A stretch of 64,000 bases of DNA from Zhongshania aquimaris (GTDB taxonomy: Bacteria; Pseudomonadota; Gammaproteobacteria; Pseudomonadales; Spongiibacteraceae), in the NCBI RefSeq assembly GCF_019312595.1, contig NZ_JAHWDQ010000006.1:1-64000 (forward strand). The letters are read 5' to 3'. Shown here one piece after another: positions 2,358 to 62,540 of this stretch. The notes beneath the pieces were generated by a model. It made no database searches. It worked only from the letters and a program-made list of their open reading frames with translations, and was not told the origin of the DNA. Positions within the stretch are counted from its first letter, which is position 1. Every line of letters starts with the position of its first letter. The translations under genes were made by a program, and so were the position numbers.

Positions 2358-2401
2358 TATAATATACAACACTGTCGATTATGTGAAGCACTGTGGTTCA
2401 C
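2358..2401 (+). promoter_or_regulatory. -10 box plus both island operator motifs
   Basis: TATAAT lies at 2358-2363. It is followed by TACAACACTGTCGAT (2365-2379), a version of the 15-bp motif with 12 of 15 bases matching the best copy. Then comes GTGAAGCACTGTGGTTCAC (2383-2401), one of three copies of the 17-bp palindrome TGAAnCAnnnTGnTTCA. No good -35 is visible. Both sites would sit near +1 of transcription toward the MFS gene, so repression is the likely effect. Confidence 0.55.
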
Positions 2402-2440
2402 AATTAACAAACGGTCATAACGATATAACAGGACCTTTTA

Positions 2441-3811
2441 ATGCCAAATCAAATTCATGCGCCATCAGCTCCACCGAGCACAGTGCCATTTCCCGCACCC
2501 TCAGTAGGTTGGTACGCCACCATTGTGCTGGCCTTTCTCTATTGGCTTTCGATTCTAGACCGATTCATTATTTCACTATTGGTCGAGCCCATTAAACGAG
2601 ATATGGGGATAAGCGACCTTCAGTTTGGCTTGCTGCACGGTATGGCTTTTGCCATTACTTACTCTCTGTTCGGTCTTGTTGCTGGCGCGATGGCCGACCG
2701 CTTTAGCCGCCGTTGGATTATTTTTGCCAGCGTATCGATTTGGTCCTTTGCCACCGCCGCCTGCGGCGCGGCAGTGCAATATTGGCAATTACTCATTGCT
2801 CGGGTGGGGGTCGGCGCGGGTGAAGCCGGTCTTAATCCAAGTGCAACGTCTATGCTCACCGATCTCTTCCCCCGCGATAAGCTCACCTCAGCACTGGCGG
2901 TTTATACCATTGGCGCTACCGTAGGCTCTGGCACCGCGTATTTTTTTGGTGGCATGATCGTAGAAGCCGTAGCGACAACTCCCAGCTATATCATTCCCCT
3001 ATTGGGTGAAATTCGCTCTTGGCAGGCTGTGTTTCTATTTATCGGCATTCCAGGCATTGCGATTTCTTTCATTGTATTCACCTTCCCGGAACCATTCCGT
3101 CGCGACCGCCGCACTAACGAAGTGAAGCAAAACTTCTGGGCGGGTATTTTCGCTTCCTATGCAAATTTGCTGCGCTTTATTTGCTCGCAAAAACGCTTTT
3201 TTGCCCACCACTACGCCGGCTTTGCGCTAGGCTCAATGGTCATGAGCGGCTGCGCGATTTGGTATCCCGCCCACATGGGCAGAACCTTTGGCTGGGGCGC
3301 CGGTGAAATCGGACTGTGGCTGGGTTCTGTAGTTGTGATATCGAGCATAAGCGGCAAATTACTGTGCGGTTATTTCGTAGACAAAATGTACAAACGCGGT
3401 TACCGAGACGCGCAGTTCCGCTGGTACGCCAGCTGCCTCATTCTCTCTGCCCCTATCGGGGTGTTTATGATGACCACCGACAGCCCAATATTGTTTTTAG
3501 CCGGTGCAAGTTTATTTCTATCGCTGATGGCACCTTTACCTGCCTGCTACACCGCTTCACTCAACCTCGCGACCCCCAATGAATTGCGCGGCACTGGCAT
3601 GGCGTTTTTTGCTGGTACGGCGGGCTTAATTGGTATGGCGGCCGGCCCAGTACTTATTGCAACGGCTTCTGAACAGCTTTATGGGGAAGGATCTATAGGG
3701 CTCGGCATGGCAACCGTAATAGGCATATTTTGCCCACTATCGGCATTAATACTAGCGACAGGCTGCAAAGCCATGCGCAAAGCGGTGAATGATTTGGAGC
3801 AAGCTAGTTAA
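2441..3811 (+). CDS. MFS transporter, Spinster-like family
   Basis: A 456-residue inner-membrane protein with about 12 hydrophobic segments. After a Pro-rich cytoplasmic tail, TM1 contains YWLSILDRFIISLLVEPIK, and the loop between TM2 and TM3 carries the MFS motif A version GAMADRFSRRW. The motif RVGVGAGEAGLNPSA is typical of Spns-like carriers, which move lipids, steroids or aromatic acids. A second family member is at 28837. Likely role: import or export of the island's substrate or an intermediate. The start follows ACAGGACC, and operators sit directly upstream. Confidence 0.85.
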   Translation: MPNQIHAPSAPPSTVPFPAPSVGWYATIVLAFLYWLSILDRFIISLLVEPIKRDMGISDLQFGLLHGMAFAITYSLFGLVAGAMADRFSRRWIIFASVSIWSFATAACGAAVQYWQLLIARVGVGAGEAGLNPSATSMLTDLFPRDKLTSALAVYTIGATVGSGTAYFFGGMIVEAVATTPSYIIPLLGEIRSWQAVFLFIGIPGIAISFIVFTFPEPFRRDRRTNEVKQNFWAGIFASYANLLRFICSQKRFFAHHYAGFALGSMVMSGCAIWYPAHMGRTFGWGAGEIGLWLGSVVVISSISGKLLCGYFVDKMYKRGYRDAQFRWYASCLILSAPIGVFMMTTDSPILFLAGASLFLSLMAPLPACYTASLNLATPNELRGTGMAFFAGTAGLIGMAAGPVLIATASEQLYGEGSIGLGMATVIGIFCPLSALILATGCKAMRKAVNDLEQAS

Positions 3812-4199
3812 TGCTGGCTTGCTAACAATATAAAGCTGCGCGGGCAAGGATTAGGCGTAGCAACCGCTTCCCCACATTGCGAACTACCGAAACCCCTTGG
3901 TAGTTCCTCCCCCTCTTGTACTTGCTCGCGAAAGTTATTTTTCAAGTGAGGACCACTATTGTCGGTCAACATGGCAACAGGTCTTGCACTTGGCCATGAG
4001 TTGCACAAGGGTTTTACCCTCCAGGCGCAACACCATCTGTTATAGATTTGTGTCAAGAAGTCACATCATCTTTGAGAAGATACTTAAGGCATCAGAGCAA
4101 CTACTGCAACGTAAAAAGGCAGCGCAACTCATGGAGTTACGCTGCCTTTAATTTAGCATCAGCTATTGAACTCGAATCACGAATTCAACATGCTCAGGC
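3812..4199. other. Intergenic region between convergent genes
   Basis: No gene is supported in these 388 bases. Frames on both strands are short, cysteine- and arginine-rich and without recognisable domains. The only clear element is the terminator hairpin at its right end. Confidence 0.5.
4113..4151. terminator. Strong bidirectional terminator hairpin
   Basis: AAAGGCAGCGCAACTC (4115-4130) pairs with GAGTTACGCTGCCTTT (4134-4149), a 16-bp stem with one mismatch and an ATG loop. A-rich and T-rich flanks on the two sides allow it to serve both the plus-strand MFS gene and the minus-strand amidohydrolase, which ends 50 nt away. Confidence 0.8.
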
Positions 4200-5528: not shown

Positions 5529-5558
5529 ATCGTCCTCCTAGCGGCGACTTATTTTCTA

Positions 5559-5573
5559 CTCAATACTGTTACT
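5559..5573. promoter_or_regulatory. Weak copy of 15-bp island operator
   Basis: CTCAATACTGTTACT matches the core CAACACTGTT with one mismatch but has poor flanks. It lies 31 nt before the amidohydrolase start. No good promoter boxes surround it, so it could be chance. Confidence 0.3.
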
Positions 5574-5585
5574 ACAGATTTACAC

Positions 5586-6308
5586 TTAAAAAGCCGACTC
5601 AAAATGTGCAAGTGGCCACCCATTCTCTTTGCTGAAATCTAATATCTTTCCCACCCGCTTTGCCCGCTCGGCGCGCTCGGGCTGAAAGGTGTAACACCCT
5701 GCTGGCATTTTGGTGGCGTCTGACTGCTGCGCCAGCGGAATCACCCGGCCATTGGCCAACATATTTCCCCATTGCAGAAGCTTTGCTGCCTCTCGCAAAT
5801 CGGCATCAATGCCGTCAATCCAATCGCGCAATTTGTCGAGTCGTATTCCCCGAATCTCAGCAGGCGACTGCATGACAAACCCTTTCTCCAGCCACTTCAG
5901 CAAACACACGCCGTTGCGGCGAATCTCTGCATTCCGCAAACCGTCAACGGGATCTGACACCACAATGTCGTAGCTCACGTTTTCACCGACACCACTATGT
6001 CTAGCGGCCAGCACAGTCAAATCATGCAAGTGCGTACAGTTTTGCCGTTTCTCAACACGTTCAGAAATATCGCTTAGCGCCATTCCTAAAAACGTTTGCC
6101 GTAACTTTTCTTCCGCGCCGGGACAGGTAGTCCACGGCACCCGATGCATCTGGGCATTTATCTCAAGCACACATGTGTCATCGTGGTGAAGAAGGACTTC
6201 CATACAATGGAAATCGTCTTCAAGGGCGGCACTTACACGTCCCCGCCCCGCTACTATTTCTATGCGTCGACGAAATCCAGCCTGCTGATCTAGTGCGACA
6301 TCAGCCAT
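5586..6308 (-). CDS. DUF2889 family protein
   Basis: A 240-residue protein from the ATG at 6308 (a GTG one codon earlier is possible). It starts MADVALDQQAGFRRRIEI, and the central block ALEDDFHCMEVLLHH with MHRVPWTTCPGA is what I recognise as DUF2889. A Cys-containing PWTTCPGA and a CTHLHD motif near the middle could bind metal. The family has no established biochemical role but recurs beside Ltp2-like aldolases and DUF35 proteins. Here it starts within 5 nt of the aldolase stop, which implies tight co-expression and perhaps joint function. Confidence 0.75.
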   Translation of the reverse strand: MADVALDQQAGFRRRIEIVAGRGRVSAALEDDFHCMEVLLHHDDTCVLEINAQMHRVPWTTCPGAEEKLRQTFLGMALSDISERVEKRQNCTHLHDLTVLAARHSGVGENVSYDIVVSDPVDGLRNAEIRRNGVCLLKWLEKGFVMQSPAEIRGIRLDKLRDWIDGIDADLREAAKLLQWGNMLANGRVIPLAQQSDATKMPAGCYTFQPERAERAKRVGKILDFSKENGWPLAHFESAF

Positions 6309-6312
6309 CACA

Positions 6313-7479: not shown

Positions 7480-7481
7480 CT

Positions 7482-7877: not shown

Positions 7878-7882
7878 ACTTA

Positions 7883-9127: not shown

Positions 9128-9180
9128 AACATTTACCGCCTAATGTTGTAGAGCCAATGGATCTAAGTGCTGAGTAAACC

Positions 9181-10005: not shown

Positions 10006-10068
10006 CTTCAACCCTCATTATTTATTGTAAATATATGTCTTACTGAAACCACAGCGCAGCTAAGGAAG

Positions 10069-10263: not shown

Positions 10264-10312
10264 TATTAGCTCCTAGAATTGAATCGCTGGCCTTACTTTC
10301 ATTTTTTGCGTT

Positions 10313-10340
10313 ATTATACATCAGTGCTGTTCAATAGCAA
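10313..10340 (-). promoter_or_regulatory. Promoter with operator in spacer, ferredoxin operon
   Basis: On the minus strand TTGCTA (10340-10335), a 16-nt spacer and TATAAT (10318-10313) form a sigma70-like promoter. The spacer overlaps the 15-bp motif copy TACATCAGTGCTGTT (10317-10331, plus reading). The divergent gene at 10450 could be controlled by the same site. Confidence 0.55.
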
Positions 10341-15497: not shown

Positions 15498-16100
15498 CTA
15501 CCTCATTAAATAAAACAGCGCGAACAGCAGCAACCACAGCAAGTCGACCATATGCCAGTAGACCGCGCCGGTCTCAACAAAACCAATATTCGGATGCTTG
15601 GCTGTTTTTAATTCTCGAAAAACAAAGCCTAAAATAATTAATCCCAAAATAACATGAACAAGATGCAAACCTGTCATAAGGTAATAATACATAAAGAACA
15701 GACTTTCACCCGGCGTTAAACCAGCGTCAAGTTTTGGCAGCCACTCAATCATTTTCAGAACAGGAAACAACACACCAAGAGCGCAGGCAATTGTCAGCAT
15801 ACGCAGGGCAGTCTTGCGATTGCCATTGCGCGCGCCCTCAGCGGCCAGCGCTACAAACAAAGAACTGGTCAACAAGACGAGGGTATTCACCACGCCTATC
15901 CATTGATCTAAGTGCTGCTGACCCTCTAGAAACAACTGTTGGTCTTGGCCGCGATAGTACATATAGGAAACAAAATAGGCGCCAAAAATAAATAGGTCGC
16001 CAATAATGAAAAACCACATACTCGATTCGCCAGAGACCCGCCCCGATGTTGCTGACGCAGGCTTAGCCAAATTTACAGCCGGGGAATTTGTGCTAGTCAA
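15498..16100 (-). CDS. Orphan cytochrome c oxidase subunit III / NorE-like protein
   Basis: A 200-residue membrane protein with five predicted TM segments: SSMWFFIIGDLFIFGAYFVS, a second around VVNTLVLLTSSLFVALA, and a C-terminal HLVHVILGLIILGF and YWHMVDLLWLLLFALFY. Those last motifs are diagnostic for COX3. Start is TTG with AAGGTG upstream; a later Met at residue 28 would remove the N-terminal tail. Five helices and no partner subunit I argue for the NorE-like branch. Its role here is unknown; it may support membrane electron transfer for the oxygenases or handle NO or O2. Confidence 0.8.
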   Translation of the reverse strand: MTSTNSPAVNLAKPASATSGRVSGESSMWFFIIGDLFIFGAYFVSYMYYRGQDQQLFLEGQQHLDQWIGVVNTLVLLTSSLFVALAAEGARNGNRKTALRMLTIACALGVLFPVLKMIEWLPKLDAGLTPGESLFFMYYYLMTGLHLVHVILGLIILGFVFRELKTAKHPNIGFVETGAVYWHMVDLLWLLLFALFYLMR

Positions 16101-16124
16101 AAGACACCTTCATCCTTATTATTT

Positions 16125-16913
16125 TTAGGAATACGCTAGTTTTTCATTCGGCGCCGCACTCTCTAGCTCACTAGAGTACAACTCAGTTTCACTCTGGTTT
16201 TTAATTGCCATAAATACGCAGACGTACACAATAATTTGCCAGGGCACATAAATAACGATGTTAAACCAAAATGCCATTAGCCCATCCCACGCAAAGGGGC
16301 CATCTTTCGCAATCCAAACGGTGGCAGCAAACAATTCAGTAGCGAATTGCCACGCGGTGTAATAACCCAACCACTTTGGCAAAATAGCATTTTTGTCTAA
16401 GACGATTGCTAAGCTGAGCACGCCCCAGTTAAGACAAAAACAACCCAATGAGCCTATAAATGACAGATAACCAAAATCATACAACATCGCTAAAATTTCG
16501 GGATCATAGCCTGGTCTAAAAGCGCCCAAACCGAAACAAAACATCGGAAATAAGCAGCCCACAATGGCTCCGACCATCGAGCCGGCAAGAAAGGCGTAAA
16601 GAAATACCGGGCTCACCGACATACGCCTTATTTGTACCGCGTAACATGCATTAGCAACCGCAGAAAGCCCCAAGACCAAAATCAATATAGCGCTGGCAAT
16701 CAGCAGCGTCGGCGACTGCATAAAGCTCACTACCTCTGCAATTCCTGCAGCTGGTGAGCGGGGTGGCATCATATAGCTCAGAGGCACAAACACCAGGCCA
16801 AACAAAGTATAGAAAACGGGCACTGACCAAAAACAAATGTATTGATCCAGCTTTTTGTTTTTAAACCACGGCACTGCGCTTCGATTTGCCGTATCAACGG
16901 CTAACTCGGTCAC
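16125..16913 (-). CDS. Polytopic membrane protein, unknown family A
   Basis: A 262-residue protein with six or seven hydrophobic segments and no signal peptide. Start is GTG at 16913, overlapping the previous stop as GTGA, so translation is coupled. It is a paralog of its neighbour: AFRPGYDPEILAMLYDFGY matches VFRPDRDPQLISLLNDMAW, and KDGPFAWDGLMAFW matches KTGPLAWDGSLSF. The conserved Arg-Pro-x-x-Asp-Pro loop and the GPxAWDG loop are likely functional. I do not recognise a characterised family. It lies between its paralog and the COX3-like gene. Confidence 0.75.
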   Translation of the reverse strand: MTELAVDTANRSAVPWFKNKKLDQYICFWSVPVFYTLFGLVFVPLSYMMPPRSPAAGIAEVVSFMQSPTLLIASAILILVLGLSAVANACYAVQIRRMSVSPVFLYAFLAGSMVGAIVGCLFPMFCFGLGAFRPGYDPEILAMLYDFGYLSFIGSLGCFCLNWGVLSLAIVLDKNAILPKWLGYYTAWQFATELFAATVWIAKDGPFAWDGLMAFWFNIVIYVPWQIIVYVCVFMAIKNQSETELYSSELESAAPNEKLAYS

Positions 16914-17614
16914 TGTGACCCCCCGCTATTTTCATTTTGCTTTCTCACGACGCCGAGCAATACGACAAACATCACCGCAACATAGACGGTAAAGGTCGCT
17001 AGCCTCAGGGTAAACGACAGGCTTCCATCCCAGGCAAGCGGGCCCGTTTTATAAATCACAGCGAATGCACCAGGCACCATTAAAATCGCGGTGACAACGT
17101 TGAAGTGGGCAACCCAACGAGGAAAAATAGGTTCTTCATTTGCATCTAAATAAATACTCAAGGCTAAACAGATATTCTGCACCACGAGAAGACCCACTGG
17201 CGTGATAAAGAAAAACCACGCCATATCATTCAATAAGCTAATCAATTGCGGATCGCGATCCGGCCTAAATACCGCCACTCCCCAACAGTAGTCAGCAAGA
17301 ATAAACGCCGACAAACTGACACCGACAGCAATAATATAAGAATAGGCGAATACGGGACTTGAGTTTGCAATACGCAGCATATGCACAGCGATAAGCGCAA
17401 AAAATGGCACAAGTGACGCGCCAATCAAATTGGCAAAAATAACCACACCACGAATACTTGTAAGATTGTTATTAAAAAACTCCGCCACTGCCTCGGGTGA
17501 CATAAGCGGTGACATGGGCGTCGTCAACACTGGGAACATGAGGTAGGCAATCAAAAATAGCGCTCCGCCAACCGGAGTAGTCCACAGCATTATCTGCTGG
17601 CCTCGTGTGTTCAT
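16910..17614 (-). CDS. Polytopic membrane protein, unknown family A (paralog)
   Basis: A 234-residue protein with about six hydrophobic segments (first MLWTTPVGGALFLIAYLMF). It shares the FRPxxDP and GPLAWDG loops with the downstream protein, which implies tandem duplication followed by divergence, and possibly a heterodimer. It begins about 80 nt after the TonB receptor stop. The extracytoplasmic loop AEFFNNNLTSIRG near residue 45 has no counterpart in known transporters that I can name. No conserved heme-ligand His pairs are obvious. A small-molecule permease or quinone-linked membrane subunit are both open. Confidence 0.75.
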   Translation of the reverse strand: MNTRGQQIMLWTTPVGGALFLIAYLMFPVLTTPMSPLMSPEAVAEFFNNNLTSIRGVVIFANLIGASLVPFFALIAVHMLRIANSSPVFAYSYIIAVGVSLSAFILADYCWGVAVFRPDRDPQLISLLNDMAWFFFITPVGLLVVQNICLALSIYLDANEEPIFPRWVAHFNVVTAILMVPGAFAVIYKTGPLAWDGSLSFTLRLATFTVYVAVMFVVLLGVVRKQNENSGGSQ

Positions 17615-17695
17615 TATTGCCTCACATTCATTGTCTATTTTGTCAATCGCATTGCGTTGCTGGCGCTGAGCGCCGCGCAGCTAATAAATAATCTT

Positions 17696-20164
17696 CTACT
17701 GCCAGTCGTAGCTTAGCTGCATACCCAGAACCCGTGGCTCAGAATAAATGGAACTGCGAAAGTAAGTGAGATTCCATTGATTACTATTCGAGATTCGGTA
17801 TTCCTTATTCGCTAAATTACTTCCGTAAAGCTGCAAGCTGAGCGCGGAACCAAAGAAGCGATTCCATGTAACACTGGCATTCACAAGACCAAAAGAAGGT
17901 AACCACGCACCTGGCTCACCTTCTGGTGGCGACAGTTGCGCGCTGTATTGCTCATCGACAAAGGTATAGGTAAGTGACGCCTCAATATCGCCATACTCAT
18001 CACTACCCATCAAGAAGGAGCGCGCTGAAATGCTGTATTGATGTTCCGGCGTGGTCTGAAACGGAAGGCAACTTAAATCCAGTACATTGCCTCTTTCCTT
18101 CGCTTCCCCGGAGCAATCTAACTGAGCGGTGGCACCACCATAAAGCAAGTCATACTCCTCATACTCAGCCTTGGTATAGCCATATGTTGCTACCAGCATT
18201 AACGATGGCAGAATTTGTGCAGTCAAATCCATTTCAAAGCCAGCCACCCAGGCCTTGCCAACATTAAAAACAGCCTGCCCAAGCTGCGGCACTGGGCTGG
18301 GGTTGGCGGGATCAACAAAAGAATCCGGTGCGGCTTTTTGAAGGTCTGCATAATCAGTGTAATAAAGCGCCGTATTTAAACGCAGTGGTATTTCGCCAAG
18401 TGTGAAATCAGACTTCTGGCCAATTTCATAATTAGTCACATACTCAGGCTCATAGGTGTAGTTGGCCGGATTCACCGCAATTGTCGCCACACCACCGGTC
18501 TTGTAACCACGACTTATTTTTCCGTAAATAAGATTCTCATTTATTTTATAGTCAAGCCCAGCGGTATAAGTAATTGCTGTATTTCTTATTCTTGTAGTGA
18601 AAGATTTATCAACTAAGGGAATAAGCCCAGCGGCTAGCTGTTGTATAGATGCGCGCCCGAAAGTTTTATCAACCGTGTAGCGAACACCTAAGGTTAAATT
18701 TAATCCCGCTAGCGAATCAGTAAAATAGCCAAGATCAAGATTGCCCTGAAAGAATGGCGCATAAGATTCCTTCTCCTGCTCGTATTCTTGATTAACGTCT
18801 ACAAATAAAAGCGACTTTGCAATTATGCGGCCTTTCGCATCAGTCTTTTCATAGTAGGCACCAACAACATAACTCAAGGCTTTATCTAATGCCTCACCCT
18901 GCAATTGCAGCTCTTCGGTGTAGGTGCTGACGTCTGCGTTATTAACATCTTCGGGATTGATAAATTCATTTAATTGCGCACGCGAACCGTCTAAATCCCA
19001 GCGATATGAATGCACCAATGTTGAGTAACTGGCAATATTTCGCAACGTTAGATTGTCATTTATGTCAAAACTAAACTTGTCTAACACTGTGCTACTTTTC
19101 AGTACATCTTGCGGGTCGCCACTTAGCTGAACACTGCGATTACCGCGCGCGCCCTGCTCATCAACGATATCCTGACCACAATTACTAGATGGTCCAAACG
19201 TATTTAAGATAAGGCAACCAAGATTCAAGGGCTGAGCCAGATCTAGACCAGGAATGAGATTAGAGACAAGCCCAAGACCCGCCGCCGCAGGAATGGCCTG
19301 ATTCAAGCCTTCACGGTTGATTTCCTCTATAACGGTTGCCGTGCCATTATCATCACTTTTGGAATACACACCCATAAAGTAATTTTCAAATCGGTCGTTA
19401 GGATTCCATAGCAAACCGACACGCGCAGTCCAGTAATTCTTATCGTCATAATCCTTATTAGTAATCACATCGCGGGTAAACCCATCACGCTTATATACTT
19501 GGCCACCAATACGAGCAGCGAGCTTTTCGTCAATTATCGGCAGGTTCAAAACAGCTTCGTAACTCTCGCCTGACGGCTTTGCAGAGCCAACATCTTCTAA
19601 ATAACTAACGCCAGCAGCAAGCCTAAACGACAGATTATTTTCTGGCTTATGGGGCTCCAGCAGCAATGCACCACCTGTGGTATTTCGACCAAACAGGGTT
19701 CCCTGAGAGCCTTTTAGAACCTGTATATTGCTAAGGTCAAAAAATTTACCCGCCCCGCCCTGATAGTTCGCAACCGGATCGGAAGGTAAAGCTACCTCGG
19801 CCATATACATCACAACGCCTGGACTGGAACCAAACTGAGCACCTTGCCCGCGAATGGTTGGGGTTTCGGTATTGCGCATTTGACTGCCAGTACCAACCAC
19901 CAGGGAGGGAACCCTGCCCTGCAAGTCCTGGGGACTATTGATCTGCTCGCGCCTAAGATCGTCACTATTAATTGTTGAAATCGCGACGGGCACGTCTTGC
20001 AAGTTCTCCTCTGTGCGTCGAGCCGTAACAACCACCTCCTCTAAAACACTGCGGCGCTCTTTTACGCTGGTTTGCTGCTTTGAATCCGCTGTTTGGGCCG
20101 CGCTTAACGGAGATATCGAGGTGAATAATGCTGATAGTAAAACCGGTTTAATATACGAATTCAC
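17696..20164 (-). CDS. TonB-dependent outer-membrane receptor
   Basis: An 822-residue receptor. A signal peptide ends near SAAQTA (about residue 25). VLEEVVVTARR is the TonB-box/plug entrance, RVPSLVVGTGSQMRNTETPT and GSQGTLFGRNTTGGALLLEP mark the plug domain, and the remainder is a 22-strand barrel ending MQLSYDWQ with an aromatic terminus near the end. Start is GTG with a strong AGGAGG 6 nt upstream. Such receptors of the hydrophobic-substrate group often serve polycyclic or terpenoid uptake. It heads the operon with the two unknown membrane proteins and the COX3/COX4-like pair. Confidence 0.9.
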   Translation of the reverse strand: MNSYIKPVLLSALFTSISPLSAAQTADSKQQTSVKERRSVLEEVVVTARRTEENLQDVPVAISTINSDDLRREQINSPQDLQGRVPSLVVGTGSQMRNTETPTIRGQGAQFGSSPGVVMYMAEVALPSDPVANYQGGAGKFFDLSNIQVLKGSQGTLFGRNTTGGALLLEPHKPENNLSFRLAAGVSYLEDVGSAKPSGESYEAVLNLPIIDEKLAARIGGQVYKRDGFTRDVITNKDYDDKNYWTARVGLLWNPNDRFENYFMGVYSKSDDNGTATVIEEINREGLNQAIPAAAGLGLVSNLIPGLDLAQPLNLGCLILNTFGPSSNCGQDIVDEQGARGNRSVQLSGDPQDVLKSSTVLDKFSFDINDNLTLRNIASYSTLVHSYRWDLDGSRAQLNEFINPEDVNNADVSTYTEELQLQGEALDKALSYVVGAYYEKTDAKGRIIAKSLLFVDVNQEYEQEKESYAPFFQGNLDLGYFTDSLAGLNLTLGVRYTVDKTFGRASIQQLAAGLIPLVDKSFTTRIRNTAITYTAGLDYKINENLIYGKISRGYKTGGVATIAVNPANYTYEPEYVTNYEIGQKSDFTLGEIPLRLNTALYYTDYADLQKAAPDSFVDPANPSPVPQLGQAVFNVGKAWVAGFEMDLTAQILPSLMLVATYGYTKAEYEEYDLLYGGATAQLDCSGEAKERGNVLDLSCLPFQTTPEHQYSISARSFLMGSDEYGDIEASLTYTFVDEQYSAQLSPPEGEPGAWLPSFGLVNASVTWNRFFGSALSLQLYGSNLANKEYRISNSNQWNLTYFRSSIYSEPRVLGMQLSYDWQ

Positions 20165-20615: not shown

Positions 20616-21200
20616 ATGGCAGAGAAAACTTTTCAACCTCACTATGCGACAGCCAAGGATGCGCGAGTTTTACAAACTCGAGAATCATTGCGAATGGCGT
20701 TTCTGACACTGCTCAAGAGCAAAGATCTGAATCAAATAGGCATTCGCGATATTGCAAACGAAGCAGGCGTTGGCTATACAACGGTCTATCGACACTTCAC
20801 TAACAAAGAAGAGTTGCTCGACTATATTGCGACGGAAGAAGTTAAAACATTAATTGATCTTGCCCTCCCCTTAGTCAACTCTGCCGACATGAGGTCAGCG
20901 GCGCTGTCACTGTGCCGCGAAGTCGCCAAACGCAAAACTATTTGGTCGTCACTGCTGACCGGCGGCGCGGCAAACACATTACGACAGGAATTTATCAATC
21001 AGGCGCTGCAGATTGCGGCAAACTGGGAGGCTCCCCACGACTGGATTCCGACAGAGATCGGCGTCACTCTTGCGGCCAGCAGTACCATCGAGCTACTGGG
21101 GTGCTGGCTAAAACAGGCCAAGCCCATCTCCGCCGATAAAATCGCGGTGATTTTTGAACACGTCATTATCACGCCGATCATTACTCAGCCGAAGAGCTGA
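20616..21200 (+). CDS. TetR-family transcriptional regulator
   Basis: A 194-residue regulator. The HTH is IGIRDIANEAGVGYTTVYRHFTNKEELLDY-type (about residues 43-72; shown in parts: IRDIANEAGVGYTTVYRHF). The C-terminal ligand domain is all-helical. It is a clear paralog of the regulator at 30365: the same FQPHYATAKDARVLQTRESL-like opening and ITPIIT-type end. Its 3' end overlaps the convergent flavoprotein gene by 20 nt. The palindrome 300 nt upstream is a candidate target. Ligand unknown, probably an intermediate of the pathway. Confidence 0.85.
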   Translation: MAEKTFQPHYATAKDARVLQTRESLRMAFLTLLKSKDLNQIGIRDIANEAGVGYTTVYRHFTNKEELLDYIATEEVKTLIDLALPLVNSADMRSAALSLCREVAKRKTIWSSLLTGGAANTLRQEFINQALQIAANWEAPHDWIPTEIGVTLAASSTIELLGCWLKQAKPISADKIAVIFEHVIITPIITQPKS

Positions 21201-26976: not shown

Positions 26977-26991
26977 ATCAACAGTGTTGAC
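26977..26991. promoter_or_regulatory. 15-bp island operator upstream of SDR
   Basis: ATCAACAGTGTTGAC has a perfect TCAACA/TGTTGA inverted repeat around one base. It is 56 nt upstream of the SDR start, and TATAGT (minus strand, 26999-26994) is a possible -10 beside it. Confidence 0.55.
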
Positions 26992-30308: not shown

Positions 30309-30331
30309 GGTAAAGTGTCGTGTGCTTTACC
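30309..30331. promoter_or_regulatory. Inverted repeat upstream of TetR gene
   Basis: GGTAAAG and CTTTACC flank a 9-nt centre, 34 nt before the TetR start and 140 nt before the divergent MFS gene. It does not match the 17-bp motif. It is a candidate autoregulatory site. Confidence 0.45.
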
Positions 30332-30364
30332 ATGTGTAATTCAATTTTCCAGATAGCGACACCA

Positions 30365-30958
30365 ATGCAACAAAAAAAAATATTCCGTCCCCATTATTCC
30401 ACAACCACTGATGCCAGGGTTATTCAAACCCGCGACGCCTTGCGCAATGCATTTCTTGAACTCTTAAACGAAAAGACTTATGAGCAAATAACCATCCGGG
30501 AAATTACGGCGAAAGCGAGCATTGGTTACACCACGTTTTTCAGGCACTACCCCAGCAAAGAAGAATTACTCGACACCGTCGCCTTCGATGAAATTGCCAC
30601 CCTGATAGATTTGGCCATAAACGCCTTGGGCTCCAGTGACACCCACGCCGCCGCAACGACCTTATGCGGCTACGTGGGCGAGCACCGCATTTTGTGGCGA
30701 ACCCTGCTTACCGGTGGCGCCTCTAGCCGACTGCGGGAAGAGTTTGTTCGCATCGCCCGCGAAATCGCCGCGGCCTGGCACAACGAGAATCACTGGTTAC
30801 CCGCCGACCTCGGCGTCATTGTGGTCTCTAGCGGCACGATTGAACTACTCGCCTGGTGGTTAGGACAGGAAGAACCCATGCCTGCCAACCAGCTTGCTGA
30901 AATTTATGAGCGTATCGTGATAAATCCCGTCATCAAGGCGAACAACACCACGCTCTAA
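30365..30958 (+). CDS. TetR-family transcriptional regulator
   Basis: A 197-residue regulator. The ATG at 30365 gives MQQKKIFRPHYSTTTDARV, which aligns with the start of the paralog at 20616; an upstream GTG at 30320 would run through the inverted repeat and is rejected. HTH: IREITAKASIGYTTFFRHY. The last four bases overlap the convergent TetR gene at 30955. Likely target: its own promoter and the divergent MFS gene. Confidence 0.85.
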   Translation: MQQKKIFRPHYSTTTDARVIQTRDALRNAFLELLNEKTYEQITIREITAKASIGYTTFFRHYPSKEELLDTVAFDEIATLIDLAINALGSSDTHAAATTLCGYVGEHRILWRTLLTGGASSRLREEFVRIAREIAAAWHNENHWLPADLGVIVVSSGTIELLAWWLGQEEPMPANQLAEIYERIVINPVIKANNTTL

Positions 30959-31611
30959 ATCAGATTTTTATCCAACATGTCCTGAAGCTGCGGAAACTCT
31001 TCATTTTCCAATACACCATGTAAAAATAGTCGTACCACTTCGTGCCGCATTCTACGCGCCATCTCCTGGCGATCACGCTTACTATCAGCATGCGCCTCAA
31101 CCCACAGCGGCCAGACAAAATAGCCCGACAGCATGAGCACCGACAGCACTTCAACGTCAATACCTGGCTTGCTGGATTTGGTTTTTGCCAACTCTTTAGT
31201 CGATGCCTTGAATTGTCTAAAAAAAGGATCCTGACTCGGGTTGGCAGAAGACAAAACCTCGAATAACCAAATTCGGCACAGCGCTGGGTTATCGACCGCA
31301 AAATTCACCAAGCGGCTCACAACCTCAACAACCGGACGCTCCGAGTTACCTATCCACTGACCTTCGTCATCAACCTCAATACCGCTGAATACAATGCTCG
31401 ATAAATATTCGCCAACAGAGGCGATTGAGGCTTTAACCAGCTCGTCGCGGGTGCCGAAATGCTGATAAGCGGTGCCGCGATTAATACCAGCAAGGTTGGC
31501 GACCCTGGATAGACTCAGCGCCTCAGGCCCTCCAGATGCCAACACCGTGCGTGCGGCTTCCAGAATAGCCTCTCTCGTTGCCGCCTTATTGCGCTCCCTT
31601 GCCACACACAC
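30955..31611 (-). CDS. TetR-family transcriptional regulator
   Basis: A 218-residue regulator with HTH LSRVANLAGINRGTAYQHF (about residues 39-57). It is paralogous to the regulator at 59026, including the conserved RIWLFEVLSS stretch in the ligand domain. Start is GTG with CAAGG-type purines upstream; a second GTG two codons later is possible. It faces the AhpD-like gene at 31796, and the sequence AACACGCTGC in the gap (minus strand) resembles AACACGATGC upstream of its paralog, suggesting a shared autoregulatory half-site. Confidence 0.85.
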   Translation of the reverse strand: MCVARERNKAATREAILEAARTVLASGGPEALSLSRVANLAGINRGTAYQHFGTRDELVKASIASVGEYLSSIVFSGIEVDDEGQWIGNSERPVVEVVSRLVNFAVDNPALCRIWLFEVLSSANPSQDPFFRQFKASTKELAKTKSSKPGIDVEVLSVLMLSGYFVWPLWVEAHADSKRDRQEMARRMRHEVVRLFLHGVLENEEFPQLQDMLDKNLI

Positions 31612-31795
31612 CCCTTAACTAATCACCATCGTTGATTTATACTACCAAATAGTGCAGCGTGTTCAAGATAATGTCAATCACATCAATAAGGTAAGCACGC
31701 GACATAAATGAGTAGTTTTTAATACAAAGCAGAATTTGCCCATTAGAGGCATGCCTGCGATACATCGTCATGGCAAAGTTGTAATAGGAATCACT

Positions 31796-36709: not shown

Positions 36710-36710
36710 T

Positions 36711-40479: not shown

Positions 40480-40508
40480 TTAAGCAACACTGGTGTGGAA
40501 TATATACT
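40480..40508 (+). promoter_or_regulatory. Promoter with operator across -35/spacer, crotonase operon
   Basis: TTAAGC (40480-40485), a 17-nt spacer and TATACT (40503-40508) form a promoter toward 40616. The 15-bp motif copy AGCAACACTGGTGTG (40483-40497) overlaps the -35 and spacer; 11 of 15 bases match the best copy. Confidence 0.5.
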
Positions 40509-44113: not shown

Positions 44114-44143
44114 TTGACGTCACACAACAGTGTTGACTACAAT
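44114..44143 (+). promoter_or_regulatory. Promoter with operator filling spacer, PQQ dehydrogenase
   Basis: TTGACG (44114-44119), an 18-nt spacer and TACAAT (44138-44143) form a good sigma70 promoter. The 15-bp motif copy CACAACAGTGTTGAC (44123-44137) lies wholly within the spacer and ends at the -10. Confidence 0.65.
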
Positions 44144-44267
44144 CAAAGGCTCTAATTTAAATAATATTTCTCAGCGCCGCATTTTAATTCTTTTAAACGC
44201 CATTACCGGTGGCCAGGATAAGCAAGATGATTTGGCGCGACTGTCTTCAACAAAAAAAAAAGAAGCT

Positions 44268-46217
44268 ATGACTATGCGATTCCCTCTCGGTAGACCCCAG
44301 ATCCAAAAACTGATACTTGCCACTTCCTTGCTACTGATGGCCAGTTCAGGATTTACATCCTCGGAAGAGGACCAGCACCAATTTGGCAGCAAATATTCGC
44401 CGCTCAAGCAAATCAACACCGGCAACATTGCTAATTTAGAACAGGCTTGGGAATACCGCACCGGTGAAGTCATCCCCGAAGACCTCACTGACCTCCTCAT
44501 CGCCTTTGAAGATCAACCCAGCATGATCGAAGGCAATTTAGTGGTGTGTACCACCACTCGAAAAATTATTGCCCTGGACCCCAAAACCGGCAAACAGCGC
44601 TGGAAGTATGACCCCAAGGACCCCAAAGTTGGCATGCAAAAATGCCGTGGTATCGCGGCCTATGTTGACGACAGCAGTGACGCGAATGCCCAGTGTCATT
44701 CCCGTATTATTTTAGGTACCGCCGATTATCGCCTAGTCGCCATCGACGCCAAAACCGGCGTACCCTGCGCCGATTTTGGTGACAACGGCGAAGTCAAAAT
44801 GCCCACCAGCACACCGCAAATATTTGATGGCGAGGTTGTCGCCAACTCGCGCCCCGCCATCGTCAACGATGTCATTATTGTTGGGTCGTCGGTCGCCGAT
44901 AACCAGCGCGTTGATGCGCCCAGCGGCAGAGTCATGGCCTACGACGCCCGCAGCGGCGAATTCCGCTGGTCCTTCGACCCCATTCCGCATAACCCAGATG
45001 ACCCAGCTTCATCAAGCTGGGAAAACGGCACCGGCAACGGCTGGGGCGGCGGCAATGTGTGGGCCACAACCTCTGCGGACCAATCACTAGATTTAGTGTA
45101 CTTGCCAACCACCAGCGCCTCTGGGGATTTTTACGGTGGCGGACGCGCCGGCGACAATCACTACACTACCTCGGTGGTGGCAGTGAAAGGCGCGACCGGC
45201 GAAGTGGTTTGGCACCAACAACTGGTTCACCACAATGTTTTTGACTACGACATTCCGTCGCAACCGCTGCTGATCGACTACCCCAACAAAGACGGAAAAC
45301 TGATTCCCGCTCTAGTGCAAAACACCAAGATGGGCCTGATCTTTGTATTTGATCGCGCCACCGGTGAGCCGCTAGTGCCGATTGAAGAGCGCCCGGTTCC
45401 GCAGGACGGTGCTGTTAAAGGACAGATCCTTTCTAAAACCCAGCCCTTCCCCGTTGGTATGCCTACCTTGGCACCGCAAGGCTTCTCCCCAGACGATGCA
45501 TGGGGATTCACCTTCATCGACAAATGGCTGTGTAAAAGAAAGGTCGAGAAGTACCGCTACGGCGCTATCTATACCCCACCAAGTGAGCAGGGAACGATAT
45601 TCTCGCCCTCTGTTGGCGGTGGCCCAAACTGGGGCGGCGGCGCCTTCGACCCAGAAAGCAATATTATGATCGTGCCGTCTAATCGCGTACCGACCATCGT
45701 CACCCTGACACCGAGAGAAAAGGCAAAAATCGTCGAGTCTCAAGCCATAGAATCGCTTGGCGCAATGACCTTCGATGTAACGGGCGCACCATATATTCCC
45801 ACCATAGAGCCCCTGCTTTCACCACTGGGGGCACCCTGCTCAGAGCCACCGTGGGCGGTGTTGTCGGCGGTGGATATTGTCAGCAAGAAAATACTGTGGG
45901 AATCACCACTGGGTGACGTCGGCGCCATGATGGGCGCTCCGTTCTCAATGATGCTGGGCACACCTGGCGCGGGCGGCCCGCTGGCAACCGCCGGCGGACT
46001 GGTTTTTATTGGCTACTCACTGGACAAGCAATTCAGAGCCTTTGACATTAAAAGCGGTGAAACCGTGTGGAGCGCAGACCTGCCATTTGGCGGCCACGCC
46101 ATACCCATTAGTTATGAAATCGACGGCGAACAGTACATCGTGATTACCGCGGGTGGTCATAGCATGTACGGTTCACAACCCGGCGACGCAGTGATTGCCT
46201 ACAAACTCAAAAAATAA
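44268..46217 (+). CDS. PQQ-dependent dehydrogenase, periplasmic quinoprotein
   Basis: A 649-residue eight-bladed propeller. The ATG at 44268 (or 44274) gives a signal peptide with core LILATSLLLMASSGF; a GTG at 44130 in frame lies inside the operator and is rejected. FGSKYSPLKQINTGNIANLEQAWEYRTGE-type start (residues about 35-62) is the first blade of GDH/quinate-type quinoproteins. Repeated blade motifs include ALDPKTGKQRW, AIDAKTGVPC, AYDARSGEFRW and FDIKSGETVW. No cytochrome c motif and no vicinal Cys pair typical of methanol dehydrogenases. It probably oxidises an alcohol or polyol in the periplasm. Confidence 0.88.
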   Translation: MTMRFPLGRPQIQKLILATSLLLMASSGFTSSEEDQHQFGSKYSPLKQINTGNIANLEQAWEYRTGEVIPEDLTDLLIAFEDQPSMIEGNLVVCTTTRKIIALDPKTGKQRWKYDPKDPKVGMQKCRGIAAYVDDSSDANAQCHSRIILGTADYRLVAIDAKTGVPCADFGDNGEVKMPTSTPQIFDGEVVANSRPAIVNDVIIVGSSVADNQRVDAPSGRVMAYDARSGEFRWSFDPIPHNPDDPASSSWENGTGNGWGGGNVWATTSADQSLDLVYLPTTSASGDFYGGGRAGDNHYTTSVVAVKGATGEVVWHQQLVHHNVFDYDIPSQPLLIDYPNKDGKLIPALVQNTKMGLIFVFDRATGEPLVPIEERPVPQDGAVKGQILSKTQPFPVGMPTLAPQGFSPDDAWGFTFIDKWLCKRKVEKYRYGAIYTPPSEQGTIFSPSVGGGPNWGGGAFDPESNIMIVPSNRVPTIVTLTPREKAKIVESQAIESLGAMTFDVTGAPYIPTIEPLLSPLGAPCSEPPWAVLSAVDIVSKKILWESPLGDVGAMMGAPFSMMLGTPGAGGPLATAGGLVFIGYSLDKQFRAFDIKSGETVWSADLPFGGHAIPISYEIDGEQYIVITAGGHSMYGSQPGDAVIAYKLKK

Positions 46218-48162: not shown

Positions 48163-49620
48163 TTAATCCAAACCACCCATACACATGTATTTCACCACTT
48201 GGTATTCATCAATGCCGTAGTGTGAGCCTTCGCGGCCAAAACCCGACTGTTTTACGCCGCCAAACGGCGCAACTTCATTTGAGATCAGACCGGTATTGAT
48301 CCCGACCATGCCGTACTCCAAGGCCTCGGCGACTTTCCAAACACGACCAATATCGCGGCTGTAGAAGTAGCTGGCCAAACCGAACTCAGTATCGTTGGCT
48401 AGCTTGATGACTTCCTCATCGCTGTGAAAACGCAATACCGGTGCCACTGGCCCGAAGGTCTCCTCGTGGGCGATGCACATTTCCTGGTTTACATCAGCCA
48501 ACACGGTCGGTTGGAAGAAATTGCCGCCCAGAGCATGACGCTGCCCGCCGCTTAATATTCTCGCGCCCAAGCCCACCGCATTCTCTATATGCTGCTCAAC
48601 TTTTAACACAGCACCTTCGTCAATTAATGGCCCCTGTGAAACACCCTCATCAACCCCGTTTCCGACTTTTAATGCATCTACTGCCTTCGCCAGTTTTTCA
48701 GTAAACGCGTCATAGACTTTATCGTGAACATATAGGCGATTCGTGCACACACAGGTCTGACCCGTGTTACGGAATTTAGAGATCATGGCGCCCTCTACTG
48801 CGGCATCCAGATCGGCATCCTCAAACACGATGAATGGCGCATTGCCACCCAACTCCAATGACAGTTTCTTTAACGTAGGGGCACACTGCTCCATGAGTTT
48901 CCGCCCGACTTCGGTCGAGCCGGTAAACGACAATTTCCTCACCTTCATACTGTTGGTAAATTCCGCACCGATAACCCGCGACTTACCGGTCAGGATATTG
49001 AGTACGCCGGCGGGAATACCCGCCTCTTCGGCCAATACAGCCAAAGCCAGGGCGGTAAACGGTGTCGCATCAGCGGGCCTAACCAGCATTGTGCAGCCCG
49101 CCGCCAGTGCCGGCGCCGCCTTTCTGGTGATCATTGCCGCTGGGAAGTTCCACGGGGTAATCGCAGCGCACACACCGACGGGTTCTTTCACCACGATTAA
49201 GCGTTTGTCATTTGCAGGACTGGGAATCACATCACCGTAGGTGCGCTTGGCTTCTTCGGAAAACCATTCGATAAACGAGGCCGCGTATTGAACCTCACCC
49301 CGCGCTTCGGCTAGGGGTTTACCCTGCTCGGCGGTCATAATTTGGGCAATATCTTCAGCGTTGTCTTGAATCAAATTAAACCAGCGACGCAAATAGGCAG
49401 AGCGCTCTTTAGCTGGCAATTTGCGCCACGGCCCCCAAGCGGCATTTGCGGCATCTATCGCATCCCGCGTTTCCAGGTCGCTAAGGCGCGGAATGGTGCC
49501 AATTAATTCACCATTAGCGGGATTAAAAACATCGGTGGTTTCGCCAGAGGTGGCATCTAGCCACTGTCCATTTACATAGGCTTGCTGCCGAAATAATTCA
49601 GGTCTATTAAGGGATAACAT
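48163..49620 (-). CDS. NAD(P)-dependent aldehyde dehydrogenase, succinate-semialdehyde type
   Basis: A 485-residue ALDH from the ATG at 49620 (product MLSLNRPELFRQQAYVNGQW). PWNFPAAMITRKAAPALAAGC, FTGSTEVGR, ELGGNAPFIVFEDAD and FRNTGQTCVC (catalytic Cys near residue 286) are all intact, as are EETFGPV and PFGGVKQSGFGREG. Sequence pattern matches GabD-like enzymes. It lies 160 nt downstream of the Rieske gene and may oxidise a short semialdehyde released from the ring or a general aldehyde. Confidence 0.9.
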   Translation of the reverse strand: MLSLNRPELFRQQAYVNGQWLDATSGETTDVFNPANGELIGTIPRLSDLETRDAIDAANAAWGPWRKLPAKERSAYLRRWFNLIQDNAEDIAQIMTAEQGKPLAEARGEVQYAASFIEWFSEEAKRTYGDVIPSPANDKRLIVVKEPVGVCAAITPWNFPAAMITRKAAPALAAGCTMLVRPADATPFTALALAVLAEEAGIPAGVLNILTGKSRVIGAEFTNSMKVRKLSFTGSTEVGRKLMEQCAPTLKKLSLELGGNAPFIVFEDADLDAAVEGAMISKFRNTGQTCVCTNRLYVHDKVYDAFTEKLAKAVDALKVGNGVDEGVSQGPLIDEGAVLKVEQHIENAVGLGARILSGGQRHALGGNFFQPTVLADVNQEMCIAHEETFGPVAPVLRFHSDEEVIKLANDTEFGLASYFYSRDIGRVWKVAEALEYGMVGINTGLISNEVAPFGGVKQSGFGREGSHYGIDEYQVVKYMCMGGLD

Positions 49621-49783
49621 AATTTCAATCCGAGTATAAAATTCATGTCGGTGTCTGCACACCACCAGTCAGAACAACAATCTTGCTTTCAATACGAACA
49701 AGGAGCCTATATCAGGCCCCTTGCGCTTGTAAACTGCGGTTTATTGTATCTGCACTATTGCAGACCAGACATCGCCCCAAAAG

Positions 49784-53434: not shown

Positions 53435-53463
53435 TTTTTAATTGTACAACAATGGTGTTCAAT
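53435..53463 (-). promoter_or_regulatory. Promoter with 15-bp operator, E1/Rieske operon
   Basis: On the minus strand TTGAAC (53463-53458), a 17-nt spacer and TAAAAA (53440-53435) form a plausible promoter. The motif copy TACAACAATGGTGTT (53445-53459, plus reading) fills the spacer. The same site is 106 nt upstream of the divergent ligase gene. Confidence 0.5.
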
Positions 53464-55038: not shown

Positions 55039-55145
55039 AACGTATTATTGCTATTAAACTTAATCATTACGCAAAACCATGAAACTAAGTCGCCAAGAAC
55101 ATAATTATATGTAAAGGCACTTTAAAAATAATTCAGGAGCACACT

Positions 55146-56393: not shown

Positions 56394-56583
56394 ATTCCGC
56401 CGCAACAGCTATCCCAGTGAAAACCCAGTGTCAGACCGGGATAGCTTGTTGTGTTCTAATAATCAACAATGCCTATCAATTCCTGTATCCTTTTCTCGAC
56501 AAGCATGTCAGATTATTACGCAACAACTCACAATTAGCCTGAAAAAAGGCTGCTTTATCTATTCAATAAAGGATGTGCCTATC

Positions 56584-58958: not shown

Positions 58959-59025
58959 ATCTACTCCGTTCGCGACATCAATAATGCCAGCAAGCGGGAA
59001 TCAAGGCCGTGTAAGCAGACAAAAA

Positions 59026-59709
59026 CTACAAATCATCTTTAAGCATTTTGATCAGATTTGGATAGTGCTTGGGCTTCAATACGCCGTTTAAGGTGAGTCG
59101 CAACATTTCGCGGGAAAAACGCTTGGTCATCGCCGCTCTTTCCTTCTTAGTCTTAGCGTGGGCATTCACCCATACCGGCCACAAAAAATTACCCGCTAAC
59201 ATCAACACCGCAAGCGCTTCTGAATCGACATCGTCGTGGCCGTATTCACCGGCAACCAAAGACTCTATACCCTGCTTGTAGCGCGCGAAAAATTTATCAC
59301 CCGATGGGTTCTTTGATGACAGCATTTCAAACAGCCAAATGCGCCCCAACTCCGGGTTTTCTACCGCAAAATTAACCATGCGCTCCATGGTTTCAAATAC
59401 CGGCTGCTCGCGCGCAGGCATCGTTTTCTCACTAGACGCTTGCTCGTCGCGCGCAGCAAAAACACCTTCCGACAGCAACTGATCTGCAACCCAGTCAGCG
59501 GTTGCATGCAATAAATCTTCACGGGTATGAAAATGTTGGTAGGCGGTACCGCGGTTAACACCCGCTAAATTTGCTACTCTAGAGACACTCAAACCCTCTG
59601 GACCGTCCTCTGACAGAACTGTGCGCGCCGCCGTTAGAATCGCCTCTCTGGTTGCTTCGGGATTGCGAACCCGACGCTTTTCTTCTGTGGCTTTTGGTTT
59701 TGCTGCCAT
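59026..59709 (-). CDS. TetR-family transcriptional regulator
   Basis: A 227-residue regulator from the ATG at 59709. HTH: VSRVANLAGVNRGTAYQHF. It is a paralog of the regulator at 30955 with the same RIWLFEMLSSKNPS stretch and C-terminal PVWVNAHAKTKKERAAM region. A half-site TACAACACGATGC (minus strand, near 59770-59758) lies upstream. It is a candidate reader of the 15-bp motif. It is co-directional with, and downstream of, the acyl-CoA synthetase gene. Confidence 0.85.
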   Translation of the reverse strand: MAAKPKATEEKRRVRNPEATREAILTAARTVLSEDGPEGLSVSRVANLAGVNRGTAYQHFHTREDLLHATADWVADQLLSEGVFAARDEQASSEKTMPAREQPVFETMERMVNFAVENPELGRIWLFEMLSSKNPSGDKFFARYKQGIESLVAGEYGHDDVDSEALAVLMLAGNFLWPVWVNAHAKTKKERAAMTKRFSREMLRLTLNGVLKPKHYPNLIKMLKDDL

Positions 59710-59874
59710 GCTAATCACCCGTGTTGTTAAGCTAATTGCGGCGATTATAGTTAATAAGCATCGTGTTGTATATTTTCTAAATACTTACATTTCGCCTTTA
59801 TACCGTCTCTGCCAATATAAACTAGGGCAAATATTGACATACCAACCTTTTCTTATTATCGAACAGAATGTTTA

Positions 59875-61434: not shown

Positions 61435-62438
61435 ACGTTTATGACAATTTTGCCAAATTGCTTGCCGCTCTCTAAATAACGCAGAGCGAGGTTTATGTCG
61501 TCAAAGGGGAAGATACGATCAATGACGGGCTTTAATTTATGAAAGCTAATGGCGCGGTTCATCAATTCAAAATCGTGACGGCTGCCAACGGTAACCGGGG
61601 TCACATCAATTCGCGATGCGAATAAGCCATCAATGGTTTGCGGCCAACCATCCAACAAACCCACCAATGCAAGACGCCCACCTTTTTTCAGCGCGGCAAC
61701 AGATTGGTTAACTGTTCCCGCACCACCGAGATCAACAGCCAGATCGACACCTACCCCATCGGTCAATTCCTTAACCTTTACTACCCAGTCAGGGTGTTGC
61801 CTATAGTTGATAATTTCGTCCGCACCTAATTCCCTGAGTTGTGCACAGCGCTCCTCACTCGATGACAGCGCAATAACTCTGGCACCAAATAACTTGGCAA
61901 ATTGCAGACAAAAAACTGAAACGCCACCGCCGCCCTGGGTAAGCACCGTCATACCGGGATACAAGGGCGCAACGCCGCACAGGGCATGCCAGGCAGTGAC
62001 CCCAGCGCAGGGTAGGCAGGCCGCTTCCTCGTAACTTAAATGCGCCGGAAATTTTAAAGCTTCACTGTAATGAACGATTAGCTCTTCACTAAGTACACCA
62101 GCTAATGGGTAACCTCGACTGGCCGGCGCACGCGCGCTGGTAAATTCGCCACTAAACCATTGCGGAATAAAACTAAGACTAATACGATCTCCAAGCTTGA
62201 ATTCTTGAACATCATCGGCAAGCTCGACAACCTCACCCGCGGCGTCAGAACACAGGACCTGCCCCTCTGGTGAAATCGGCCCCAGCTTGCCATTGATCAC
62301 CAGTAAATCGCGATAATTTAGCGAAACCGCCTTAACCTTGATCCTCAACTGCCCAGTACAAAGGGTCGCAGAATTAGCGTGATTGTCTAATTGCACAGCG
62401 TCGATACCGCCAGCCTCTTTAATCAAAATGCGCTTCAC
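61431..62438 (-). CDS. Zinc-independent MDR oxidoreductase (quinone reductase/crotonyl-CoA reductase-like)
   Basis: A 335-residue medium-chain reductase. SLNYRDLLVINGKLG is the N-terminal MDR motif and LTQGGGGVSVFCLQFAKLFGA the cofactor loop near residue 166. The catalytic and structural zinc cysteines of classical ADHs are missing, so NADPH-dependent reduction of a conjugated carbonyl is more likely than alcohol oxidation. It is divergent from the SDR at 62571 over the best copy of the 15-bp operator and is coupled to the downstream ligase. Confidence 0.85.
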   Translation of the reverse strand: MKRILIKEAGGIDAVQLDNHANSATLCTGQLRIKVKAVSLNYRDLLVINGKLGPISPEGQVLCSDAAGEVVELADDVQEFKLGDRISLSFIPQWFSGEFTSARAPASRGYPLAGVLSEELIVHYSEALKFPAHLSYEEAACLPCAGVTAWHALCGVAPLYPGMTVLTQGGGGVSVFCLQFAKLFGARVIALSSSEERCAQLRELGADEIINYRQHPDWVVKVKELTDGVGVDLAVDLGGAGTVNQSVAALKKGGRLALVGLLDGWPQTIDGLFASRIDVTPVTVGSRHDFELMNRAISFHKLKPVIDRIFPFDDINLALRYLESGKQFGKIVINV

Positions 62439-62511
62439 GTGCTATCAATCCTTATTATTTTATTCAAGAACTGCATGCTTTTTCGACGCTGCAGATTCCT
62501 GTACCATGAAA

Positions 62512-62540
62512 TTAGTATACAACACTGTTGTACTTATAAA
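62512..62540 (+). promoter_or_regulatory. Promoter with the perfect 15-bp operator
   Basis: TTAGTA (62512-62517), a 17-nt spacer and TATAAA (62535-62540) point to the SDR at 62571. TACAACACTGTTGTA (62518-62532) is a perfect palindrome around one base and begins directly at the end of the -35. It is the best copy in the window. Confidence 0.65.

Follow-up and report, generated by a model that had tools for sequence, protein, structure and literature searches.

Genes and palindromes in the window

The stretch of DNA analysed here (the window) comprises the first 64 kb of contig NZ_JAHWDQ010000006.1 (C9, 203,287 bases) of Zhongshania aquimaris, the genome of which consists of 4,252,075 bases in 12 contigs. 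A short palindrome recurs between the genes of the window, and two related TetR-type proteins encoded there, called TetR_A1 and TetR_A2, are the regulators predicted to bind it. The genes facing the palindromes code for SDRs, P450s, two 3-ketosteroid-dehydrogenase-like flavoproteins, coenzyme A (CoA) ligases, a thiolase, CoA-transferases, a PQQ-type dehydrogenase, E1 dehydrogenase subunits, a Rieske oxygenase, transporters and TetR proteins. Because of these enzyme classes, and of relatives from Steroidobacter, Solimonas and Novosphingobium among the matches listed, the substrate would be a steroid- or terpenoid-like compound.

Seven copies of a 15-bp palindrome had been reported in a preliminary description of this DNA, and all seven sequences were found at their positions. 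The unit common to the sites is an 11-bp core, CAACA-N-TGTTG, with mostly A/T on both sides. This core (CAACANTGTTG) fits the sites better than the 15-bp consensus, which is too long and overspecified. The only exact copy of the consensus lies at 62518; there are two mismatches at 53445, three each at 2365, 10317 and 44123 and four each at 26977 and 40483. With up to three mismatches allowed, the 15-bp consensus gave 6 matches in the window (one of them coding, at 5958) against 1.93 expected, and 6 matches were attained in 1 of 100 shuffles. In a blind count of 9,216 palindromes (five-base arms, gaps of 0-8, at most one mismatch) in the intergenic DNA of the window CAACA-N-TGTTG was the most frequent, with 7 intergenic occurrences (six of the seven reported copies and one at 49675) and 2 coding ones, followed at ranks 2-4 by A/T-rich words.

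A weight matrix, referred to as the foreign matrix, was obtained from loci of other genera which contain relatives of the TetR_A proteins (the best 80 of 133 relatives; several of these named loci come from the same genomes as the survey of 293 genomes described below). In these loci the 350 bp before the TetR match were searched for the core, with no more than two mismatches allowed, and the best hit was kept. This yielded 38 sites and a matrix of approx. 14.8 bits in total; the matrix thus stems from other genera but is not blind, since the core word was used for picking its sites. In the window it gave, at a threshold of at least 12 bits, 9 hits in the intergenic DNA (8,679 bases) and 4 in coding DNA; at 14 bits or more the counts were 7 and none, respectively. 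In 500 dinucleotide shuffles of the intergenic DNA the mean was 0.25 hits at 12 bits and the highest count 3. According to crude open reading frame (ORF) calls the intergenic density per 10 kb was 11.9 in the window against 0.95 in 11 stretches of this genome taken as background (220 kb; the 12-bit threshold was reached twice in 21 kb of intergenic DNA), and the coding densities were alike (0.87 and 0.75). Site 44123 was treated as intergenic in the shuffle test and as coding in the density comparison. An equal density in coding DNA or across the genome, which had been named beforehand as an argument against a regulatory role, was not observed. The computation shows a non-random intergenic placement. 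The coding hits of the window (e.g. 5958, 9407, 41264, 41030, 20945) were not accepted as sites, their density being that of the background.

In the whole genome the exact 13-mer WCAACANTGTTGW is present in 8 copies, compared to 3 for the reversed control pattern; five of the 8 are on contig C9, three of those within the window, and two lie inside ORFs (C1:487387, C11:37536). When one mismatch was tolerated, the counts were 59 and 22, respectively.

Table 1. TetR_A genes and predicted operator sites (bits: score with the foreign matrix)
Feature	Position	Strand	Context	Bits
TetR_A1	59026..59709	-	predicted palindrome-binding regulator; TetR_N domain
TetR_A2	30955..31611	-	predicted palindrome-binding regulator; TetR_N domain; 51% identical to TetR_A1
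TACAACACTGTCGAT	2365..2379		upstream of MFS transporter gene 2441	15.5
TACATCAGTGCTGTT	10317..10331		between SDR 9181 (-) and gene 10450 (+)	13.4
ATCAACAGTGTTGAC	26977..26991		between SDR 26172 (-) and P450 27154 (+)	20.7
ATCACCATCGTTGAT	31622..31636		directly upstream of TetR_A2 (30955) and CMD-domain gene 31736	16.5
AGCAACACTGGTGTG	40483..40497		between AraC-type gene 39355 (-) and enoyl-CoA-hydratase-type gene 40616 (+)	12.9
CACAACAGTGTTGAC	44123..44137		upstream of PQQ-type dehydrogenase gene	17.0
TACAACAATGGTGTT	53445..53459		between E1 dehydrogenase gene 52407 (-) and AMP-ligase gene 53566 (+)	16.1
ATCACCCGTGTTGTT	59714..59728		4 bases upstream of presumed ATG (59709) of TetR_A1	14.5
TACAACACTGTTGTA	62518..62532		between MDR-type gene 61431 (-, then AMP-ligase 59875) and SDR 62571 (+)	15.4
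Site	C9:69694		beyond the window; beside SDR
Site	C9:75755		beyond the window; between SDR and CoA-transferase; within 76-aa ORF taken as spurious
Site	C10:131055		between SDR and AtuA-family gene
Site	C10:126385		before AraC-type gene
Site	C10:149698		before thiolase-TetR
Site	C10:66740		before flavin monooxygenase-type gene

Two sites, one at each TetR_A gene start (59714-59728 and 31622-31636), had been overlooked in the preliminary list; its weak copy at 5559-5573 was discarded, as the foreign matrix gave it 0.7 bits. As had been stated, the sites are in general intergenic and mostly divergent (7 of 9 between divergent genes), with site 2365 having merely the small ORF 1954-2244 or gene 959-1513 as leftward partner. 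A correction concerns site 44123, which runs into the 5' end of the longest possible ORF of the PQQ-type dehydrogenase (44130-46217, mechanical start GTG at 44130). This start is probably too early and the real one would be near 44268, therefore the site is placed upstream of the protein. The suggested overlap with -35 and -10 boxes can be drawn at most sites, but the boxes are matches to the consensus only, and such matches arise by chance; at the single site tried, a promoter scanner returned 2 promoters against 0.9 in shuffles. For this reason no mechanism was drawn from the exact overlap. A marginal intergenic site, AACAACAATCTTGCT (49673-49687, 11.5 bits), adjoins the aldehyde dehydrogenase gene 48163-49665 on its upstream side.

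A regulator acting through the palindrome had been suggested to control most of the island. As a prediction from sequence this is borne out for most operons, since 37 of the 49 listed genes would belong, judging from their orientation, to operons with a site, some with intra-operon gaps over 100 bp. No site precedes the presumed operons of the other 12, which are 959, 15498-20164 (cytochrome-oxidase-like and TonB-receptor genes), 20616, 28837, 30320, 32444, 33769 and the hydantoinase genes 34889-38783. The predicted regulon extends beyond the window, onto the further C9 and C10 sites of Table 1.

The TetR_A proteins and their relatives

Both TetR_A proteins match PF00440 (TetR_N, the N-terminal helix-turn-helix), with 46.0 bits for the protein encoded at 59026 and 46.1 bits for that at 30955 (cut-off 24). 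The predicted model of TetR_A1 (mean pLDDT 86.6) is helical nearly throughout and has an all-helical TetR-like fold; among its first 50 Foldseek matches all those with telling titles are TetR-type regulators (TM 0.41-0.62 by query length). The sequence match to characterised TetR families and solved structures is found mainly in the helix-turn-helix region. A third paralogue, 47% identical, is encoded on contig C10. There is hardly any variation in the recognition helix (VNRGTAYQHF, INRGTAYQHF and VNRGTAYHHF in the three paralogues), which is consistent with an operator common to them. Sites 59714 and 31622 adjoin TetR_A1 and TetR_A2 directly upstream, and the gene of the C10 paralogue comes after a thiolase gene, upstream of which there is site C10:149698.

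The two proteins had been put forward as candidate regulators, and rightly so, as the same palindrome tops the upstream regions of their foreign relatives. From these relatives, chosen solely by their similarity to the island's TetR proteins, 74 genes were retained after thinning from 79, and 5,120 palindromes (gaps of 0-4) were scored upstream of them. CAACA-N-TGTTG ranked top, being present in 17 of the 74 upstream segments and in 89 of the 4,724 control segments, while most of the runners-up were G/C words which are common in the controls, too. With a matrix of the sites in the preliminary description a site of at least 10 bits was found within 350 bp upstream of the TetR gene in 34 of the 80 named loci, compared to 3.6% of 4,409 control windows. 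The sites are not limited to the regulator gene itself. After removal of the TetR gene and the 500 bp before it, the named loci (near-identical ones included) still showed, at 15 bits or more, 32 hits in 140 kb of intergenic DNA against 19 coding hits in 908 kb; with 40 permuted matrices the intergenic hits averaged 0.9, with a maximum of 16. The association of the palindrome with this TetR subfamily is shown by the computation across genera.

Within the order, a TetR_A relative at E 1e-20 is present in 13 of 293 genomes, Z. aquimaris included, and in five of the 21 genomes of the family. In the 12 relatives 11 of the 15 TetR genes have an upstream site of at least 12 bits (matrix of the sites in the preliminary description); for the remaining four (L057, L066, L068, L069) intergenic sites are located in other parts of the sequence retrieved. 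Z. aquimaris and the congener G192, both with three TetR copies, contain 8 and 7 exact 13-mers, respectively, and G300, which has a single copy, contains one. Six of the seven in G192 are intergenic by crude ORF calls. The 15 congeners without TetR hold 18 exact 13-mers altogether, against 15 of the reversed control, i.e. the background level; five of the 18 are in G293.

Conservation in the congener is shown as well. Four orthologous genes or pairs of G192 were aligned (MFS 2441, the SDR/P450 pair at 26977, TetR_A1 and TetR_A2), and the promoters of all four retain a site. Upstream of the G192 transporter, 73% identical to MFS 2441, the site aligns with 2365, and in both G192 and Spongiibacter pelagi the TetR_A1 orthologue is preceded by a site that aligns with 59714. 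The same divergent SDR/P450 pair and the TetR_A2 orthologue of G192 have their sites at shifted positions. A ligase of G192, 73% identical to 59875, has a 13.5-bit site approx. 50 bases upstream, while in the window site 62518 precedes the MDR gene before the ligase. The G192 transporter gene orthologous to 2441 and the third-paralogue operon diverge from each other and have one site in common (L057 8455); in Z. aquimaris these genes are on different contigs.

The window contains a second pair of similar TetR genes, TetR_B (20616-21200 and 30320-30958, both +), which are both best matched by one G192 gene (53% and 69% identical). Upstream inverted repeats are present at both, and no motif common to the pair was seen.

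Proposed regulation and alternative explanations

The findings can best be accommodated if WCAACA-N-TGTTGW is the operator of the TetR_A subfamily, which would repress a dispersed catabolic regulon of steroid/terpenoid type and regulate its own synthesis; we estimate the probability of this interpretation at about 85%. Binding and repression by TetR_A, the ligand and the assignment of paralogues to sites are what we infer in it. Dimers of TetR_A1, TetR_A2 and the C10 paralogue would bind the palindromes in front of divergent catabolic operons, as well as those directly upstream of their own genes, which would amount to autoregulation. The bound dimers would repress transcription until a pathway intermediate, perhaps the CoA ester of a steroid- or terpenoid-like compound, releases them, and most of the island and the related C9 and C10 genes would then be induced together. 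Repression and release by an intermediate are modelled on KstR, KstR2, EdcR and AtuR, and by this analogy they are the most likely course of events. If this is true, one switch code turns most of the island on and off together.

Several observations weigh against this interpretation. Out of 500 column-permuted matrices 4 reached at least 8 intergenic hits in the window, the set including permutations which leave the core nearly unchanged. In 46 of the 80 named loci a site of at least 10 bits is missing from the 350 bp upstream of the TetR gene. Two of the conserved promoters (SDR/P450, TetR_A2) can be aligned only with a shift, and the G192 counterpart (54% identical) of the Rieske gene 49784 has no site near its start. 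Spongiibacter pelagi (G272; L070/L058) and Litorivivens (G095), with one TetR each, contain no exact 13-mer and have only degenerate sites at the TetR start. Finally, five exact 13-mers occur in G293, a genome in which there is no full-length TetR relative. All five are inside crude ORFs (of 223, 391, 266, 388 and 63 aa), and G293, like G298 and G295, gave only weak TetR matches (best E 2e-15), mostly limited to the helix-turn-helix part or little more.

The idea that a single regulator is responsible is not supported, as the genome encodes three close paralogues with nearly the same recognition helix and the data do not separate the sites among them. The sites might instead be divided among the paralogues, with half-site variants and flanks defining separate sub-regulons. 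The sites of the TetR_A1 and TetR_A2 genes tend to start with ATCACC, ATCATC or ATCAAC, while those of the structural genes are nearer to WCAACA, and the site which the G192 transporter has in common with the third-paralogue operon would also fit such a division. However, the core bases are common to the sites and the recognition helix hardly differs, which makes the division rather unlikely in our judgement.

It is much less probable that another regulator of the island (the AraC-type protein 39355, the 20616/30320 TetR pair or a Zur-like protein) binds the palindrome and that the TetR_A genes are merely clustered with it. An AraC-type gene adjoins site 40483 and another one C10:126385, and a passage of PMC545781 gives a similar candidate Zur site of Desulfovibrio, ATGCAACagtGTTGCAT. 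Nevertheless, in other genera this word outranks every other palindrome immediately upstream of the TetR_A relatives, and it falls to background in the congeners without TetR_A; in the Zur consensus the outer bases are conserved and the centre is not. At five loci of unrelated TetR genes of the Z. aquimaris genome the foreign matrix gave no hit of at least 9 bits on the upstream side; elsewhere at these loci one hit reached 14.7 bits (L013). A chance set of sites, picked by eye from A/T-rich intergenic DNA, has practically no likelihood, since the single exact 15-bp copy and the result of that consensus search, which would suit it, are outweighed by the shuffles, the background stretches, the blind enumeration and the foreign promoters.

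Known systems and wider occurrence

A close counterpart in Pseudomonadota is EdcR of Caenibius tardaugens, a TetR repressor of a steroid-type cluster for estradiol degradation. Like the proposed TetR_A system, it has its palindromes in divergent promoters, and its own gene is preceded by a weaker copy, according to the passages used from PMC8700777. By the same passages its operator is TnnCnnTACnAnTnGTAnnGnnA, by eye with other spacing than the window sites, and its C-terminal domain is TetR_C_11 (PF16859); the latter is not matched by the TetR_A proteins of the window, for which PF00440 was the sole match at E 0.001. AtuR and RdmA (acyclic terpene and DSF catabolism in Pseudomonas) are likewise TetR repressors acting on inverted repeats before atuA-type genes, and an AtuA-family gene adjoins one of the C10 sites. 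Their operator, given as AGCAAGCGCTTGG in a passage of PMC9973270, has by eye CAAGC half-sites instead of CAACA, and it is by the operator alone that they are set apart here.

With the NCBIfam KstR model NF033703 the TetR_A proteins scored 12.4 and 17.1 bits, far below the cut-off of 280. The KstR2 structure 4w97 agrees with the TetR_A1 model in the general fold, at 15% identity. The operators of KstR and KstR2 differ from CAACA-N-TGTTG. The common features of these actinobacterial regulators of cholesterol catabolism, as described in the passages of PMC8700777, are repression of a scattered steroid regulon, autoregulation and CoA-ester effectors.

A passage of PMC8700777 presents the known regulators of bacterial steroid catabolism as a very short list, and the passages of PMC4810484 on the spread of steroid degradation genes are silent on a CAACA-N-TGTTG operator. 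In the openly licensed literature on TetR and steroids, AtuR and Zhongshania, as far as its passages were retrieved, no description of such an operator was found; EdcR, AtuR/RdmA and reviews were obtained. The literal words CAACACTGTTG, CAACAGTGTTG, CAACAATGTTG and CAACATTGTTG brought up no title on a TetR operator among the matches listed, and the retrieved part of PMC545781 holds the word in its candidate Zur site.

A TetR repressor with a palindromic operator is an ordinary type of mechanism; the TetR_A subfamily itself is uncharacterised. The operator word together with its predicted regulator would allow regulons and unassigned catabolic genes to be found directly from genomes. It would also join scattered clusters, on two contigs here, into one pathway, and TetR_A would be a candidate sensor for steroid- or terpenoid-type compounds. 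Only tentatively, and at somewhat less than even odds, we extend the proposal to several orders of Pseudomonadota, in which CAACA-N-TGTTG and this subfamily would organise steroid/terpenoid-type catabolism, the paralogues of some genomes would cross-regulate separate clusters as one network, and sphingomonads would use an overlapping double operator. TetR_A relatives also occur in metagenome bins labelled Myxococcales and Verrucomicrobia.

The spacing CAACA-N4-TGTTG stood out upstream of the foreign relatives as well (12 of 74 against 69 of 4,724). On inspection this was mostly the same site with an overlapping extra half-site, and many of the loci belong to sphingomonads. Such composite words, e.g. 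CAACANTGATGTTG, are found upstream of TetR at L083, L086, L117, L121 and L128 (sphingomonads) and at L137 (Solimonas). Two operator-like halves overlap in them with a 3-bp offset, which suggests an operator for two dimers.

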